Assembly: GCF_034119845.1 (NCBI RefSeq)
Contig: NZ_CP139420.1
Location: 1,652,001-1,716,000, forward strand
Direction of reading: 5' to 3'
DNA from: Flavobacterium sp. NG2
GTDB taxonomy: Bacteria; Bacteroidota; Bacteroidia; Flavobacteriales; Flavobacteriaceae
DNA length: 64,000 bases
The number at the start of each line of letters is the position of its first letter. Positions within the stretch are counted from its first letter, which is position 1. Of this stretch, positions 6,533 through 35,026 are shown one piece after another. A program made the translations under genes and the position numbers. The notes beneath the pieces are model-generated. The model saw only the letters and a program-made list of their open reading frames with translations, had not been told where the DNA came from and ran no database searches.

Positions 6533-8287
6533 TTAGTTTGCAACCGAAAACTGCGAATCGTATAAGTTTTTGTAATAACCAGATTCTTTGTCAATCAATT
6601 CTTGATGGGTTCCTTGTTCTACAATCAAACCTTGATCCATTACAACAATTTTATCAGCATTTACGATAGTTGCTAAACGATGCGCAATTACTATAGACGT
6701 TCTACCTTGCGTAATAGTTTCCGTTGCTCGTTGTATTAATTCTTCAGAATAAGTATCGATAGATGAAGTTGCTTCGTCCAAAATCAAAATACTCGGATTA
6801 CTCACATAAGCACGTAAAAAAGCAATCAATTGACGCTGACCTGATGACAACATCACACCTCTTTCTTTTACATCAAAATCATAATTATCTGGTAAGCTCA
6901 TAATGAAATCATGAACGCCAATTTCTTTTGCTGCTTTGTAAACATCTTCTCTGGAAATTTCAGGGTTGTTCAGGGTGATGTTGTTGTAAATAGTATCGGC
7001 AAAAAGAAACACATCTTGCAAAACTACTGCAATTTGCTTGCGTAACGAACTCAATGTGTAGTTTTCAATATTATGATTGTCAATACAAATCGTTCCCTCG
7101 TTGATTTCGTAAAAACGATTCAATAAGTTGATAATTGTAGATTTTCCTGCACCTGTGGAGCCTACAATTGCAATAGTGTCACCAGCGTTGACTTCGAGAT
7201 AGATACCTTTTATGACTTCTTCATTTGGGATATAACCAAAATGAACCTTTTTAAAAGAGATAGCACCATCAAAAACTGGCGCTTCTACTTTTCCTGTATC
7301 TTGAATTTGGTCTTGAGTGTCTAGGATTTCAAACACACGATTAGCAGCAATCATTCCCAGTTGCATCTCGTTGAACTTATCCGCAATTTGACGCAAAGGG
7401 TTGAACAACATTCCAATAAACATAGTGTACGAGAATAAATCACCAAAAGTGGTAAAATTGTCGCCATTTAAGATTTTTATACCCCCATACAAAACCACAA
7501 AACCCAAAGTCAGCGAAGAAATAATATCGGCAATTGGGAAGAAAATCGAGTTGTATAAAATGGTTTTAATCCAAGCCGTTTTATGTTTGTGATTGATTTC
7601 TTTAAATTTATCTGATTCAATAGTCTCGCGATTAAACAATTGCACGATTTTCATACCTGTCACACGCTCTTGTACAAAGGTGTTCATGTTAGCAATTTCG
7701 GCACGTACTTCCTCAAAGGCTATCTGCATTTTACGTTGAAAAATTCTAGTAAAATAAACTAATATAGGCATGGCAATAATTACAATCCATGTCAGTTTCC
7801 AGTTCATATAAAGCATAAAACCAAGTACTACCACCATTTTCATCAGGTCACTGATAATCATGAAAAGACCTTGACTAAAAATACGAGCAATGGCTTCAAT
7901 GTCAGAAACTGAACGGGTTACGAGCTGTCCTACAGGAACCAAATCAAAATATTTCATCCTAAAACTTAGAATGTGTTTAAAGAGCTTGACTCTAATGTCC
8001 TTGACGATATCTTGCCCCAGCCAGTTTGCCCAATACACAAAGTAAAACTGTGAAAAAACCTCCAGTAGCAATACAATCCCCATTAAAGTGATGTACATCA
8101 AGAGTCCGTTAGCGTCTTCGGTTTGAATGTAGCCATCCACTGTTTGCTTCAATAAATACGGGCGTAAAGCCGCAAAAACGGATAATGAAATGGCAAAAAC
8201 CACCACGCCATTAAATCGCCATTGATAAGGTTTGGTGTAAACTAAAATTCGTTTAAATAATCGTATGTCAAATGCTTTTGCTTTCAT
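6533..8287 (-). CDS. ABC exporter, fused permease and ATPase
   Basis: A 584-aa half-transporter. A six-helix type I exporter domain occupies roughly residues 20-310. The ATPase follows, with Walker A GSTGAGKST (near 376), signature LSSGQRQ (near 479), Walker B ILILDEATS and the H-loop IAHRL near 535. It belongs to the MsbA/MdlB-like multidrug and lipid exporter group and would act as a homo- or heterodimer in the inner membrane. The signature has SSGQ rather than SGGQ, which is common in this subgroup. The substrate is unknown; a second, distinct exporter of the same superfamily lies at 27794. Confidence 0.9.
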   Translation of the reverse strand: MKAKAFDIRLFKRILVYTKPYQWRFNGVVVFAISLSVFAALRPYLLKQTVDGYIQTEDANGLLMYITLMGIVLLLEVFSQFYFVYWANWLGQDIVKDIRVKLFKHILSFRMKYFDLVPVGQLVTRSVSDIEAIARIFSQGLFMIISDLMKMVVVLGFMLYMNWKLTWIVIIAMPILVYFTRIFQRKMQIAFEEVRAEIANMNTFVQERVTGMKIVQLFNRETIESDKFKEINHKHKTAWIKTILYNSIFFPIADIISSLTLGFVVLYGGIKILNGDNFTTFGDLFSYTMFIGMLFNPLRQIADKFNEMQLGMIAANRVFEILDTQDQIQDTGKVEAPVFDGAISFKKVHFGYIPNEEVIKGIYLEVNAGDTIAIVGSTGAGKSTIINLLNRFYEINEGTICIDNHNIENYTLSSLRKQIAVVLQDVFLFADTIYNNITLNNPEISREDVYKAAKEIGVHDFIMSLPDNYDFDVKERGVMLSSGQRQLIAFLRAYVSNPSILILDEATSSIDTYSEELIQRATETITQGRTSIVIAHRLATIVNADKIVVMDQGLIVEQGTHQELIDKESGYYKNLYDSQFSVAN

Positions 8288-8320
8288 TGTTTAGGAGCAT
8301 AACGCTCTGTTTTTATAATT

Positions 8321-8398
8321 ACGTCCAGTCCTGCTGTTCGCTTTAATCTTTTTATTTTTAAAGAAAAATAAAAAGGATTTCCGCTGCCATCAGGGCTA
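8321..8398 (-). repeat. Structured dispersed repeat, copy A
   Basis: Read on the reverse strand: TAGCCCTGATGGCAGCGG, then a 12-bp perfect hairpin (arms at 8348-8359 and 8364-8375, loop AAAG), then AAAGCGAACAGCAGGACT. The flanks match copy B at 23216-23290, but the hairpin arms are unrelated in sequence. It lies between the ABC exporter start and truA. Whether it is transcribed is unknown. Confidence 0.75.
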
Positions 8399-8429
8399 AT
8401 TAATATCGTTTTTATTTTCAAAAAGTCAT

Positions 8430-8471
8430 CTCCCAACTTCCCACTTCTAACTTCCCACTTCTACCTTCACA
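8430..8471. repeat. Six heptanucleotide units (CTTCCCA/CTTCTAA)
   Basis: Consecutive 7-bp units: CTCCCAA, CTTCCCA, CTTCTAA, CTTCCCA, CTTCTAC, CTTCACA. The last unit overlaps the truA stop codon (8467-8469). Related 7-bp units occur at 14903-14930 and 15008-15035. Confidence 0.8.
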
Positions 8472-9201
8472 AATAAGGGTATTCAATCTTTGTCAAATAC
8501 AAACCATGAGCGGGGACTGAAAATCCAGCTTTTTCTCGGTTTTTTCCAATGATGATGTTTTCAAAATCCTCTAAATTGATTTTGTGCATACCAATATTTA
8601 CCAAAGTTCCCACAATTGCGCGCACCATATTTCTCAAAAAACGATTGGCTGATATGGTAAAAATAAGTTGGTTGTTTTCTTCTTTCCAGTAGGCCTCAAA
8701 AATCGTGCAATCAAAAGTGTTTACATCCGTATTGACTTTTGAAAAACATTGAAAATCGGTGTGATTTAAAAGAATTTTAGCTGCTTTGTTCATCAAATCG
8801 ACATCAAGTTTTTGATTTAGATACCAACTTTGTTCATGTGAAAAAGCGTCTTTAAAGTTATTTATATGATATTGATAAGTTCTCTTAGTAGCATCAAATC
8901 GTGAATGTGCTTCGTCGTCAACTTGTAAAACTTTATAAATAACAATGTCTTTTGGCAAATAAGAATTGAGTTTATAAACGAGCTTGTCGCCGTCAATAGG
9001 GGTGTTATAGTCAAAATGCGCATACATTTCGCGTGCATGAACACCTGTGTCTGTTCGGCCTGCTCCCATAATATTGATTTCAGTGCCTAGTATTACAGAT
9101 AAAGCCTTATTGAGTGTTTCTTGTACCGAAGCGGCATTGGGTTGGAATTGCCAACCGTGATAGTGCGTTCCGTTATAAGCTAGTTTTATAAAATATCTCA
9201 A
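8467..9201 (-). CDS. truA: tRNA pseudouridine(38-40) synthase
   Basis: TruA isomerises uridines 38-40 in the anticodon arm of tRNAs. The 244-aa protein has the catalytic Asp in GAGRTDTGVHA (D51) and the family's RNFLRNMVR-type motif (here NRFLRNMVRAIVGTL). A TTG start at 9201 (LRYFIKLAYNGT) is preferred over the longer TTG at 9231, because the -7 box TACCTTTG at 9229-9236 overlaps that longer start and known TruA proteins begin at this point. The 3' end runs into a heptanucleotide repeat tract. Confidence 0.92.
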   Translation of the reverse strand: MRYFIKLAYNGTHYHGWQFQPNAASVQETLNKALSVILGTEINIMGAGRTDTGVHAREMYAHFDYNTPIDGDKLVYKLNSYLPKDIVIYKVLQVDDEAHSRFDATKRTYQYHINNFKDAFSHEQSWYLNQKLDVDLMNKAAKILLNHTDFQCFSKVNTDVNTFDCTIFEAYWKEENNQLIFTISANRFLRNMVRAIVGTLVNIGMHKINLEDFENIIIGKNREKAGFSVPAHGLYLTKIEYPYL

Positions 9202-9228
9202 GTGTTTAGTCTCAAAGTTTAAGAGTTT

Positions 9229-9236
9229 CAAAGGTA
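9229..9236 (-). promoter_or_regulatory. truA -7 box
   Basis: The reverse strand reads TACCTTTG, an exact TAnnTTTG match, 28 bp before the preferred TTG start at 9201. It decides between the two candidate starts. Confidence 0.6.
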
Positions 9237-22354: not shown

Positions 22355-23071
22355 ATGATTGATTTGAAAAATAAAAATGCACTAATAACAGGGGCAGGGA
22401 AAGGAATAGGAAAAGCAATCGCAATCGCTTTGGCAAAAGAAGGGGTCAACGTTATTTTAGTTGCCAGAACTCAAGAAGATATTGATAATGTTGCATTAAA
22501 AGTACGTTCTCTAAGAGTCAAAGCATTGGCTTTAACCGCTGATGTGTCAGACAATGAATCAGTGAAAACTGCTGTCGATAAGGCTTTGTCTGAATTTGGG
22601 AGCATTGATATTTTAATCAATAACGCTGGAATTGCTGCTTTTGGCAAATTCTTAGATATGGAAACGACAGATTGGGAGCGCATTATTCAAGTGAATTTAA
22701 TGGGGACTTATTATGTAACCCGTGCAGTTTTACCTAATATGATTGAAAGACAAACAGGGGATATTATCAATATTTCCTCGACTGCAGGATTGAATGGAAA
22801 TGCAATGACAAGTGCTTATAGTGCTTCAAAATTTGCGGTTTTAGGTTTAACGGATTCATTGATGCAGGAAGTACGCAAGCATAATGTACGAGTTACGGCT
22901 TTAATTCCAAGTACAGTTGCTACTGATATGGCCAAAGAATTAAATATTGTAGGCGACAATGCGGATAAAATCATGCAAGCCGAAGATATTGCTGAGTTGA
23001 TAATCGCACAGTTAAAATTAAATAAACGCGTATTCATTAAGAATAGTAGCATTTGGACAACGAATCCGTAA
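22355..23071 (+). CDS. Short-chain dehydrogenase, FabG-like
   Basis: A 238-aa NAD(P)-dependent oxidoreductase with the classical SDR layout: TGAGKGIG (T12-G19), NNAG (N89-G92), catalytic S142, and Y155/K159 in YSASK. The best resemblance is to 3-oxoacyl-ACP reductases, and the length fits. The gene stands alone, not within a fatty-acid operon, so FabG itself is not claimed. A 15-bp-stem terminator follows. Confidence 0.88.
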
Positions 23072-23177: not shown

Positions 23178-23215
23178 TTTTTTTATTTGTACCTAAAATT
23201 TTATTCGTTGTTTTT

Positions 23216-23290
23216 TAGCCCTGATAGAAGCGGTATCCTTGTGGCGGCAGGCGTTAAGCCGCCACAAGATATAGCGGATAGCAGGAGGGA
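23216..23290 (+). repeat. Structured dispersed repeat, copy B
   Basis: TAGCCCTGATAGAAGCGG, then a perfect 11-bp hairpin CTTGTGGCGGC/GCCGCCACAAG (arms 23238-23248 and 23258-23268), then ATATAGCGGATAGCAGGA. The flanks align with copy A (8321-8398, opposite strand), but the arms are unrelated. It lies between the SDR terminator and the sigma-factor gene. Confidence 0.8.
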
Positions 23291-23403
23291 TGTTTCATAA
23301 ATGCAGCTTATAATGTGCTCCAAAAAAACTTTTTTTAAATTATTTTCATTTCGCTCCCAACCTTTTTTGTTTATTTACGCTCTTTACTATTAAAGACCTT
23401 ATT

Positions 23404-23940
23404 GTGATAAACGAAAATCTAATAATAGCCTGTAAAAAGATGCAACGTGATGCCCAGCGTCAGGTGTATGAGCAACTAGCGCCTAAACTCTATGCGAGTT
23501 GTAAACGCTATCTCAAACAGGATGAAGAAATTGAGGAAGCTCTAGCGGATGCATTTTATACCATTTTCACAAAAATAGACCAATTGAAAGAATTGGGTGC
23601 TTTTGAAGCGTGGGCACGAAAAATTGCAGTCAATCAGTGTTTGGCTAGATTAAAGAAAAAGAACAACTTTAATATGTATCTCGATGATGTGCATGCACTT
23701 TCGCAACCGTTTACCGATGAAGTCACTAATTTAGAAGAAGAAGATTTACTCGATTTATTAAATCACATTCCCGAAGGATGCAAAACGGTTTTTAATCTTT
23801 TTGTGATTGAAGGTTATGGGCACAAAGAAATAGGGCAAATGCTCCAAATTTCGGAAGGGACATCCAAATCACAATTGAATGCCGCCAAAACCAAGTTGAA
23901 GGAATTAGTAAATGCTCTTTATTACAAAAAATCGAATTAG
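23404..23940 (+). CDS. ECF-type RNA polymerase sigma factor
   Basis: A 178-aa sigma-70 family factor. Region 2 is at about residues 15-85 (LKQDEEIEEALADAFYTIFTKI as the -10/core-binding helix, then FEAWARKIAVNQCLARLKKK), and region 4 at about 115-170 with the helix-turn-helix GHKEIGQMLQISEGTSKSQLNAAKTKLKEL. A GTG start at 23404 gives MINENLIIACKKM, the usual start of this subfamily. It is followed after 2 bp by a membrane-anchored, probably anti-sigma protein, and should direct transcription in response to an envelope signal. Confidence 0.92.
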   Translation: MINENLIIACKKMQRDAQRQVYEQLAPKLYASCKRYLKQDEEIEEALADAFYTIFTKIDQLKELGAFEAWARKIAVNQCLARLKKKNNFNMYLDDVHALSQPFTDEVTNLEEEDLLDLLNHIPEGCKTVFNLFVIEGYGHKEIGQMLQISEGTSKSQLNAAKTKLKELVNALYYKKSN

Positions 23941-34253: not shown

Positions 34254-34339
34254 ATTTTTCACGGACTCTGATGTATCAAAAAAGTCTTTTTTAGGTATTG
34301 ACTAGACGCACGTTCTCCACGGAGGTGTTTTTTGTTTTT

Positions 34340-35026
34340 TTAGGCTGCTAAAATTTGTTGCTGCTTGAGAATTCTTCTTCCTATTTCCAGGGCATTTCCT
34401 GTATGTATTCCGAAGAAGATCCAAAGCATTTCACTTTTTTGGGTTTTGGCTTTTATCTTTTTTAGATTGTAATGTTCTTTCTCTTTTCCAAAACTTCCTT
34501 CTAATCGAGTGGAGCGTTCTTTTTTGATTTCTTTAGCTAAGATTTTACGCTGTTCTTCATTTTTGCCAGCTTTTCCTTTTCGCACAAAATCGGTTTGGAT
34601 GTTGTTTGAAGTGGTGAATGTTCGATTTTTATTGGTGGCATAAATTGCATCAGCACCAAGCATTTTTACTTTAGTTTTGGTTAAGTTTTGAGCGCAAAAA
34701 ACCGTGCTTTGAAGACGTGTACCTTCATTGAAAGCTCTGTACTGAATATGTTCTATAAAATTAATTCCATCAATTTGGATTTTGTTGACTTTGGCTCCAA
34801 ATTCAACTTGTTTTACTTCCTTACCTCTTACAATAGGTCTAATATAGCTTTTACTAATACTTATTATTCTATCTGGAACACTTTTGCCTGTTTTAAAAAT
34901 TTGAGACTGTTGTTGATACACCTTAGCGATTAGAGAACGTTGGTTTTTGTATTTTTTAGTAGCTTCAAAAGAATTTTGATTCTCAATTTTATTGAGTTCA
35001 GCGTTAAGTTTGTACAATAATTTCAA
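34340..35026 (-). pseudogene. Transposase, C-terminal part (frame 2)
   Basis: A 228-aa segment with LKLLYKLNAELNKIE, the second catalytic Asp region MLGADAIYATN and the Glu region TRLEGSFGKEKEHYNL of a DDE transposase. It has no credible start of its own (TTG only). The frame is open upstream to 35074, overlapping the end of the N-terminal ORF. Adding one A to the A6 run at 35071-35076 (reverse strand) would join both parts into a 453-aa protein reading YSKKRKKQSKHRTKV across the joint. Confidence 0.8.

Follow-up and report, generated by a model that had tools for sequence, protein, structure and literature searches.

What kind of element keeps a perfectly paired hairpin at two distant sites when the blocks around it are shared and its arms are not? 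The window analysed here is a 64,000-nt stretch of the genome of Flavobacterium sp. NG2 (contig NZ_CP139420.1, positions 1,652,001 to 1,716,000). An initial annotation had described two such copies, one on each strand, had read the preserved pairing of wholly different arms as selection for structure, and had left open whether the copies represent a mobile hairpin element or an RNA. It also named Flavo-1 as a possibility and suggested that similar sequence recurs between genes in Flavobacterium. Both suggestions proved right, as a cmscan search of Rfam 15 matches the two hairpins to the full model (1–76) of RF01705 (Flavo-1), each above the gathering score of 42 bits for that family. The copies, their shared blocks and their perfect arms lie within 3 nt of where they had been placed.

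Fold of the two window copies

The window copies have the sequence and fold of the Flavo-1 RNA motif RF01705 (PMC2864571). The Rfam model spans 76 positions and carries the type sRNA gene; the copies described here add an outer closing helix, P1, and fall into three outer classes. Their arms are exchanged, at the sites compared they keep their place and orientation across species, and IS110 elements use them as a target, none of which is part of that model. Flavo-1 is longer than first drawn, with P1 pairing AGC with GCT about 98 nt downstream in both window copies. The features are as follows.

8323-8401, reverse strand: Flavo-1 copy A, 79.3 bits, E 7e-16, long outer class (class II)
8364..8375, read 8375-8364, reverse strand: copy A apical arm, 5' strand CTTTTTATTTTT, by sequence reading
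8348..8359, read 8359-8348, reverse strand: copy A apical arm, 3' strand AAAAATAAAAAG, by sequence reading
8395..8397, reverse strand: copy A closing helix P1, 5' strand AGC, from sequence and P1 covariation
8296..8298, reverse strand: copy A closing helix P1, 3' strand GCT, then CC, by sequence reading
8467..9231, reverse strand: tRNA pseudouridine synthase, truA-like (PseudoU_synth_1), upstream of copy A
6533..8287, reverse strand: ABC transporter with membrane and ATPase domains, downstream of copy A
23213-23292, forward strand: Flavo-1 copy B, 69.6 bits, E 3.3e-13, class II with GC-rich arm
23238..23248, forward strand: copy B apical arm, 5' strand CTTGTGGCGGC, by sequence reading
23258..23268, forward strand: copy B apical arm, 3' strand GCCGCCACAAG, by sequence reading
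23217..23219, forward strand: copy B closing helix P1, 5' strand AGC, by sequence reading
23317..23319, forward strand: copy B closing helix P1, 3' strand GCT, by sequence reading
22355..23071, forward strand: short-chain dehydrogenase, upstream of copy B
23404..23940, forward strand: sigma-70 family, ECF-type sigma factor, downstream of copy B

A model built from copies in other species finds only copies A and B in the window at E < 0.1; two further matches have E values of 0.48 and 0.78. Across the whole NG2 genome (one contig, 4.15 Mb) there are at least 112 Flavo-1 matches at E up to 0.001, a lower bound because 150 of 1180 first-look candidates were scored. At least 42 bits are reached by 103 of them. 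We read 108 of the 112; the other four score 33.0–36.6 bits.

The copies have a core in common: the P2 stem, an internal loop that is symmetric (AGYG/ARCG), a short stem of A/T pairs in which one C is bulged, and the apical arm. The three outer classes were recognised by eye, and a script that misfiles some copies (for example the truncated copy 1322717) counts 37 in class I (short), 56 in class II (long) and 15 in class III, the last with the signature TGCGTGAGGGAT...ATAGCCCGACCC...CACGCCC. P1 closes classes I and II. Nine class II copies in NG2 carry a 5' triplet other than AGC, and in eight the 3' triplet, read by eye, matches it (ACC/GGT in five, AGT/ACT in three); the TGC of copy 2831512 is unmatched. 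Automatic counts of P1 are weaker than the reading by eye, one of them having skipped 23 copies and misread some, and in the model alignment, which misplaces P1 for class II, 81.3% of cells pair with a G-U:A-C ratio of 17:15.

Of the 2530 cells in an alignment of 106 distinct NG2 copies, 95.4% pair, a figure favoured by the fitting of this alignment to the model; when the partner is slid by one column it falls to 34.8–50.4%. Double changes occur in 712 cells against a shuffled mean of 217. A measure of further pair types is no higher in these copies than in shuffles (64 versus 64.3, with 318 of 500 shuffles as high). Individual pairs outside the arm draw on as many as four of the standard pair types, wobble not counted, and the four best rows have 0–1 failures (row 1: UA 50, CG 26, AU 14, GC 13, UG 1, failing 1; row 2: AU 50, GC 35, UA 12, CG 7, failing 1; row 3: CG 75, UA 29, UG 2, failing 0; row 4: GC 100, AU 6, failing 0). 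Pairing is complete in 39 copies from other species, chosen from the 52 with recognisable ends among 60 fetched from the best-scoring matches listed: all 960 cells pair, double changes number 159, and sliding the partner by one column leaves 44.0–49.5% paired.

Wobble pairs give the fold a strand. In the NG2 helices P2–P4, without the innermost pair, G-U outnumbers A-C by 15 to 2, indicating that one strand folds, and the 39-copy set has ten G-U and no A-C. Cruder counts in the arms give G-U:A-C ratios of 21:0 (with many arms misparsed), 21:6 and 19:7; by our own sorting, the seven A-C cells of the last count comprise four from class III arms in which the reading crossed the bulged C, two from the internal loop and a single genuine one (copy 43528). 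We conclude that the Flavo-1 pairing is real, that the fold is under selection, and that the annotated strand in its folded form, RNA or single-stranded DNA, is what selection keeps.

Selection for structure had originally been argued from the arms. Their pairing is borne out: arms of at least 9 bp form in 174 of 198 copies, compared with 33 of 198 after shuffling of the interior, so that genome-wide copies with unpaired arms, one outcome that would have spoken against the idea, were not the rule; the other, flanks conserved nowhere else, did not arise either, since the flanking blocks recur in the Flavo-1 copies read. The arms are not in themselves proof of structural selection, however, because they owe their variety partly to the swapping of whole palindromic arms. 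The claim holds by virtue of the single covarying pairs outside the arm, which arm swapping is unable to yield; some of the arm covariation has this other cause.

Arm exchange and inheritance of sites

The GC-rich arm of copy B (CTTGTGGCGG...) is present on 46 of the 108 NG2 copies, spread over class I (18), class II (23) and class III (5), and on none of 90 Flavo-1 copies from 12 other genomes. These 46 copies fall into 19 outer haplotypes and have inner types CATC or TATC (31) and AAATC (15); their arm ends are 0.93 alike and their outer parts 0.56, in an ungapped comparison that biases the outer value low. The apical arm is thus an exchangeable unit found on different outer parts. At three orthologous sites the NG2 copy has the GC-rich arm and the Flavo-1 copies of relatives have other arms. 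One of these, site 558871, retains the less common outer pair CCAG/CTGG in NG2, in relative G007 and, with one base changed, in relative G037, and the NG2 arm is entirely different. From such sites we infer that arms are replaced in place. An arm that is itself an independent repeat was rejected, as all 28 matches of its hairpin pattern in the NG2 genome lie inside listed Flavo-1 copies. In their conserved ends, exchangeable or variable inner part and structure when transcribed, modular intergenic repeats of the BOX/NEMIS type presumably resemble Flavo-1.

Other repeats also occur within Flavo-1. A second structured repeat (...GAGCGACCAnnGGAAGCT...) is nested at the hairpin tip in five truA-site loci (L121, L128, L129, L132 and L137) and at NG2 positions 227169-227313. 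A third (TTACTTCnCn...GGAnTTCAGTGAA) is inserted in one strand near the internal loop in L119, L304 and NG2 454728-454855. Further palindromes (CCCTGTCAGGG... and GTCATACTGAGCTTGTCGAAGTA) are centred in the arm at NG2 34297-34407 and 1288072-1288168.

Sites are shared between species. Downstream of truA, the site of copy A, Flavo-1 is found in 15 of 30 genomes of the genus, always in the orientation of truA (15/15), and upstream of truA in 8 of 30, always opposite to it (8/8); where both strands scored, the far better one was taken. By parsimony on the 30-genome tree, presence requires 3 changes at the upstream site and 12 at the downstream site, the latter implying either frequent loss or repeated gain in one orientation. 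Three more NG2 sites have Flavo-1 in 6 (one of them a degenerate match of 23 bits), 4 and 5 of 11 relatives, so that orientation is constant wherever a copy was found at the five orthologous sites (15/15, 8/8, 6/6, 4/4 and 5/5). The site of copy 2928713 has Flavo-1 in 0 of 12 relatives, among which we found no alignable empty site, and this copy may be a recent insertion. At the copy B site the sigma-factor gene is retained in 2 of 29 other loci (L146 and L149), both of which lack Flavo-1 there.

Repeat or small-RNA gene

Since 2010, when Weinberg et al. listed it as probably RNA and not cis-regulatory (PMC2864571), Flavo-1 has been regarded as an RNA whose function is unknown; a 2022 review names it under the heading 'most abundant small RNAs' (PMC9029176). 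In our view Flavo-1 is probably a dispersed, REP-like hairpin repeat of Bacteroidota and not a discrete small-RNA gene. The tests lean towards one side of the choice that the initial annotation had left open.

Flavo-1 is intergenic, palindromic, present in many copies and uneven between species. Twelve relatives of the same genus have 4–101 copies each, and eight genomes from other genera of the order have 14 copies, 42 copies and, in six cases, none, with 137 candidates scored per genome in both groups. At class level, under stricter filters and with 36 candidates scored per genome, a match is present in 47 of the 119 genomes sampled and exceeds the cut-off in 30. Of the NG2 copies, 82 of 108 are clear of ORFs called by a simple caller (at least 60 codons); the 26 ORFs overlapped by the others have at most 129 codons in 23 cases and 513, 514 and 526 codons in three. 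Around the 82 ORF-free copies the neighbouring genes are both antisense in 27, convergent in 23, both sense in 21, divergent in 10 and unknown in 1. Three copies, near 2975599, 3059933 and 3082791, sit in 2.5-kb stretches that are 82–95% alike; the neighbours of the one at 3082791 are, by eye, a leucine-rich-repeat gene and a gene for a small membrane protein.

The resemblance to REPs extends further. According to the sections of PMC3733652 on the GTAG and CGTC families, REPs are also dispersed, palindromic and mostly downstream of genes, with copy numbers very uneven between species and G-T pairs in their stems. Flavo-1 differs in length (about 80–140 nt against the 20–40 bp given there for REPs), in its symmetric internal loop, and in that we found neither a GTAG tag nor a flanking RAYT; REP families themselves differ in tag, size and enzyme.

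If Flavo-1 is such a repeat, a folded single strand, DNA or RNA, would be recognised through the internal loop by a putative factor. Copies would spread rarely, and arms would be homogenised between copies in place, by gene conversion or by repair of the hairpin tip templated on another copy. For Flavo-1 itself we found no transposase, excision product or precise empty site.

A less probable alternative, assumed by the sRNA type in Rfam and by the table of Weinberg et al. (PMC2864571), is that Flavo-1 is a functional structured RNA, trans-acting or concerned with processing or stability, made from and selected at each copy. The single-pair covariation and the constant site and orientation at the sites tested would fit such an RNA, and the excess of G-U over A-C in the conserved stems, expected of a selected RNA too, counts against a repeat-only reading. 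In F. psychrophilum several transcribed 5' regions coincide with Flavo-1 matches; yet the same part of that transcriptome study describes the matches as indistinctly sense or antisense, with many outside transcribed regions, and reports no real clue to Flavo-1 function (PMC9723704). Neighbouring genes in every arrangement and a copy number that ranges from 4 to 112 per genome within one genus also argue against an RNA gene. The promoter element TAnnTTTG shows no excess upstream of the 108 NG2 copies (7 matches in 70 nt, against 5 and 10 in control windows), which may count against one as well.

That a Y1 transposase (RAYT/TnpA-REP), for example one of the Bacteroidetes subclass 2.6, mobilises Flavo-1 as a classical REP is very unlikely; genes of that subclass are described in the relevant part of PMC6006769 as flanked by atypical structures. 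The dispersed, palindromic, strand-polar, intergenic and IS-targeted character of Flavo-1 would suit a RAYT, and 12 of the 21 genomes contain Y1 matches, NG2 having six such matches. However, there is no Y1 match in G004, which has 101 Flavo-1 copies, or in G011 (46), G012 (12) and G013 (14). In 20 of 36 Y1 loci, with flanks of up to 1.5 kb, we saw one good Flavo-1 match 1.4 kb away and one weak match, about what the overall density would give; a motif script, which recognised a Y1 protein in only 3 of 20 loci, carries no weight here. The GTAG tag is missing: no class I copy (0 of 36) and just 3 of the 54 class II copies have a G where the tag would begin. As Y1 transposases do not track Flavo-1 and no flanking RAYT was found at the 20 loci searched, we rejected mobilisation by a RAYT.

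We also consider it most improbable that template switching during replication repairs imperfect palindromes, making arms perfect without selection so that only the conserved blocks are constrained. Long arms, for the most part perfect, that are altered as whole units agree with this, as do the other palindromes nested at the tip of copies 34297 and 1288072. But the leftovers of template switching should be G-T and A-C in equal numbers, against the 15:2 observed in P2–P4 (weaker in the cruder counts), and this process leaves unexplained both the single covarying pairs in P2/P3 and the same arm on distant copies.

Other candidates were rejected: a riboswitch, 5'-UTR or other 5' cis-regulatory element, because the downstream gene is co-directional with Flavo-1 in only 31 of 82 ORF-free copies; carriage by phage or plasmid, with one viral contig matching a 25-base pattern and no plasmid match for copy B; and a preference for the lagging strand, with 56 plus-strand and 47 minus-strand copies among 103. 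For the last, dividing the genome into replichores at dnaA or at the point where the skew switches gives P 0.43 in each case; of eleven trial divisions, beginning once more with that at dnaA, one reached P 0.027. In sampled segments of the NG2 genome, GC skew switches near 0.95 and 2.95 Mb, and dnaA lies at position 25.

IS110-family elements at Flavo-1

Upstream of four NG2 Flavo-1 copies lies a stretch of about 1.46 kb that is nearly identical in all of them. The stretch is an IS110-family element (PF01548, 70.2 bits; PF02371, 75.4 bits), whose transposase is matched over its full length five times in the genome. The five near-identical elements, each 1468 bp by script, lie in one orientation at the same dinucleotide (CCCT-AG/CCC of Flavo-1 or its equivalent), and joining the element flanks restores Flavo-1. 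Their loci on the NG2 contig are approximately as follows.

422981-426982: IS110-family copy (L262)
432981-436982: IS110-family copy (L274)
795001-799002: IS110-family copy (L280)
1319832-1323833: IS110-family copy (L285)
1532729-1536730: IS110-family copy (L283)

The non-coding end of the NG2 element holds a guide-like sequence, TTCTATCGGGGC, identical to the left target at 9–10 of 11 positions. The predicted fold of this end places a 12-bp stem round the guide, with an overall z-score of 0.08. We looked for a right-target guide in the IS110 elements and did not find one.

In a scan of named genomes for relatives of the element we considered the best 80 of 147 matches and read the 16 best loci and L357. 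The single copy in Flavobacterium sp. 28A is in Flavo-1 and has the same guide as the NG2 element. Both copies in F. muglaense are in class III Flavo-1, at its 3' end, with guides GTGGTCGGGCT and GTTGTCGGGCT, and all five in Weeksellaceae MIP2422 are in class III. Among the 22 copies read, including the five of NG2, 13 are in Flavo-1, 2 in Flavo-1-like sequence (those of MAG SSA2, judged by eye only), 5 elsewhere (L335, L338, L344, L348 and L347) and 2 at a contig end, where the visible target is not Flavo-1 (L334 and L345). A Flavo-1 match above the Rfam cut-off accompanies 6 of the 13 docked copies (NG2 425735, 434146, 796167 and 1320998; L333 and L336). The target of the fifth NG2 copy matches our own model at E 0.0013. 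The MIP2422 targets score 29.2–38.6 bits, below the cut-off, with E values of 0.0001–0.043, and their rejoined sites are clear by eye; the target in L337 was recognised by eye only.

Guides and targets go together. When 11 distinct guides are compared with their own left targets, 87 of 99 positions agree, against a mean of 62.1 and a maximum of 82 in 50,000 permuted re-pairings; the test counts wobble, allows a one-base shift and takes one guide per element type, related guides are not independent, and it leaves out L348, an element without a recognisable guide. At the sequence level, then, Flavo-1 serves IS110-family elements as a docking site, and where they insert, the Flavo-1 strand is matched by the target guide of a putative bridge RNA. 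The NG2 element is probably RNA-guided. Where the guides of related elements have apparently changed, the insertions lie in a different Flavo-1 class or in targets of another kind.

Distant IS110 relatives (37–40% identity) in genomes G007, G030 and G004 have other targets. The three G030 loci (L266, L276 and L281; 37% identity) place IS110-family elements at GCTAACGTTTTGGGG-like sites, which we take to resemble integron attC sites. In Flavobacterium granuli (L264/L347) a relative lies at the 3' end of an apparent group II intron, with a matching guide GTCTACT and no Rfam match there; that the neighbouring sequence is an intron end is our assumption from its appearance.

There is a close precedent in IS621, which according to the parts of PMC11208160 that concern targeting has a CT core and a left guide and inserts into REPs, themselves targets of the IS110 family. 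IS621 and the NG2 element have in common a DEDD recombinase with PF01548 and PF02371, the CT core, a left-target guide in the non-coding end and a repeat as target, and by our own comparison the IS621 target ATCAGGCCTAC resembles the Flavo-1 reverse strand ATC(A/G)GGGCTA. The NG2 element differs in that its target is Flavo-1, that the guides of its relatives fit another Flavo-1 class or other targets, that its bridge RNA is putative and that no right-target guide was found. The Flavo-1 family was already known; its role as an IS110 landing site is new here, and in the open-licence literature we found no paper on Flavo-1 with IS110, nor on IS110 with Flavobacterium and bridge RNA.

A bolder reading, which we think unlikely, is that of a homing hairpin: a palindromic arm of about 30 nt would copy itself between Flavo-1 elements in place, leaving the outer part untouched until one arm dominates the genome, and the outer part would serve as a shared landing pad for several re-programmed IS110 bridge RNAs.

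With the REP-like repeat as the preferred reading, the view of Flavo-1 shifts from an sRNA gene to a dispersed repeat and IS110 landing site. The exchange of arms in place is a clear puzzle that Flavo-1 raises. Studies of bridge-RNA retargeting could make use of this naturally occurring set of IS110 elements, in which the guides follow the classes of a single repeat. Should Flavo-1 indeed prove to be REP-like, a large number of the 'sRNA genes' annotated in the Bacteroidota would not be genes.
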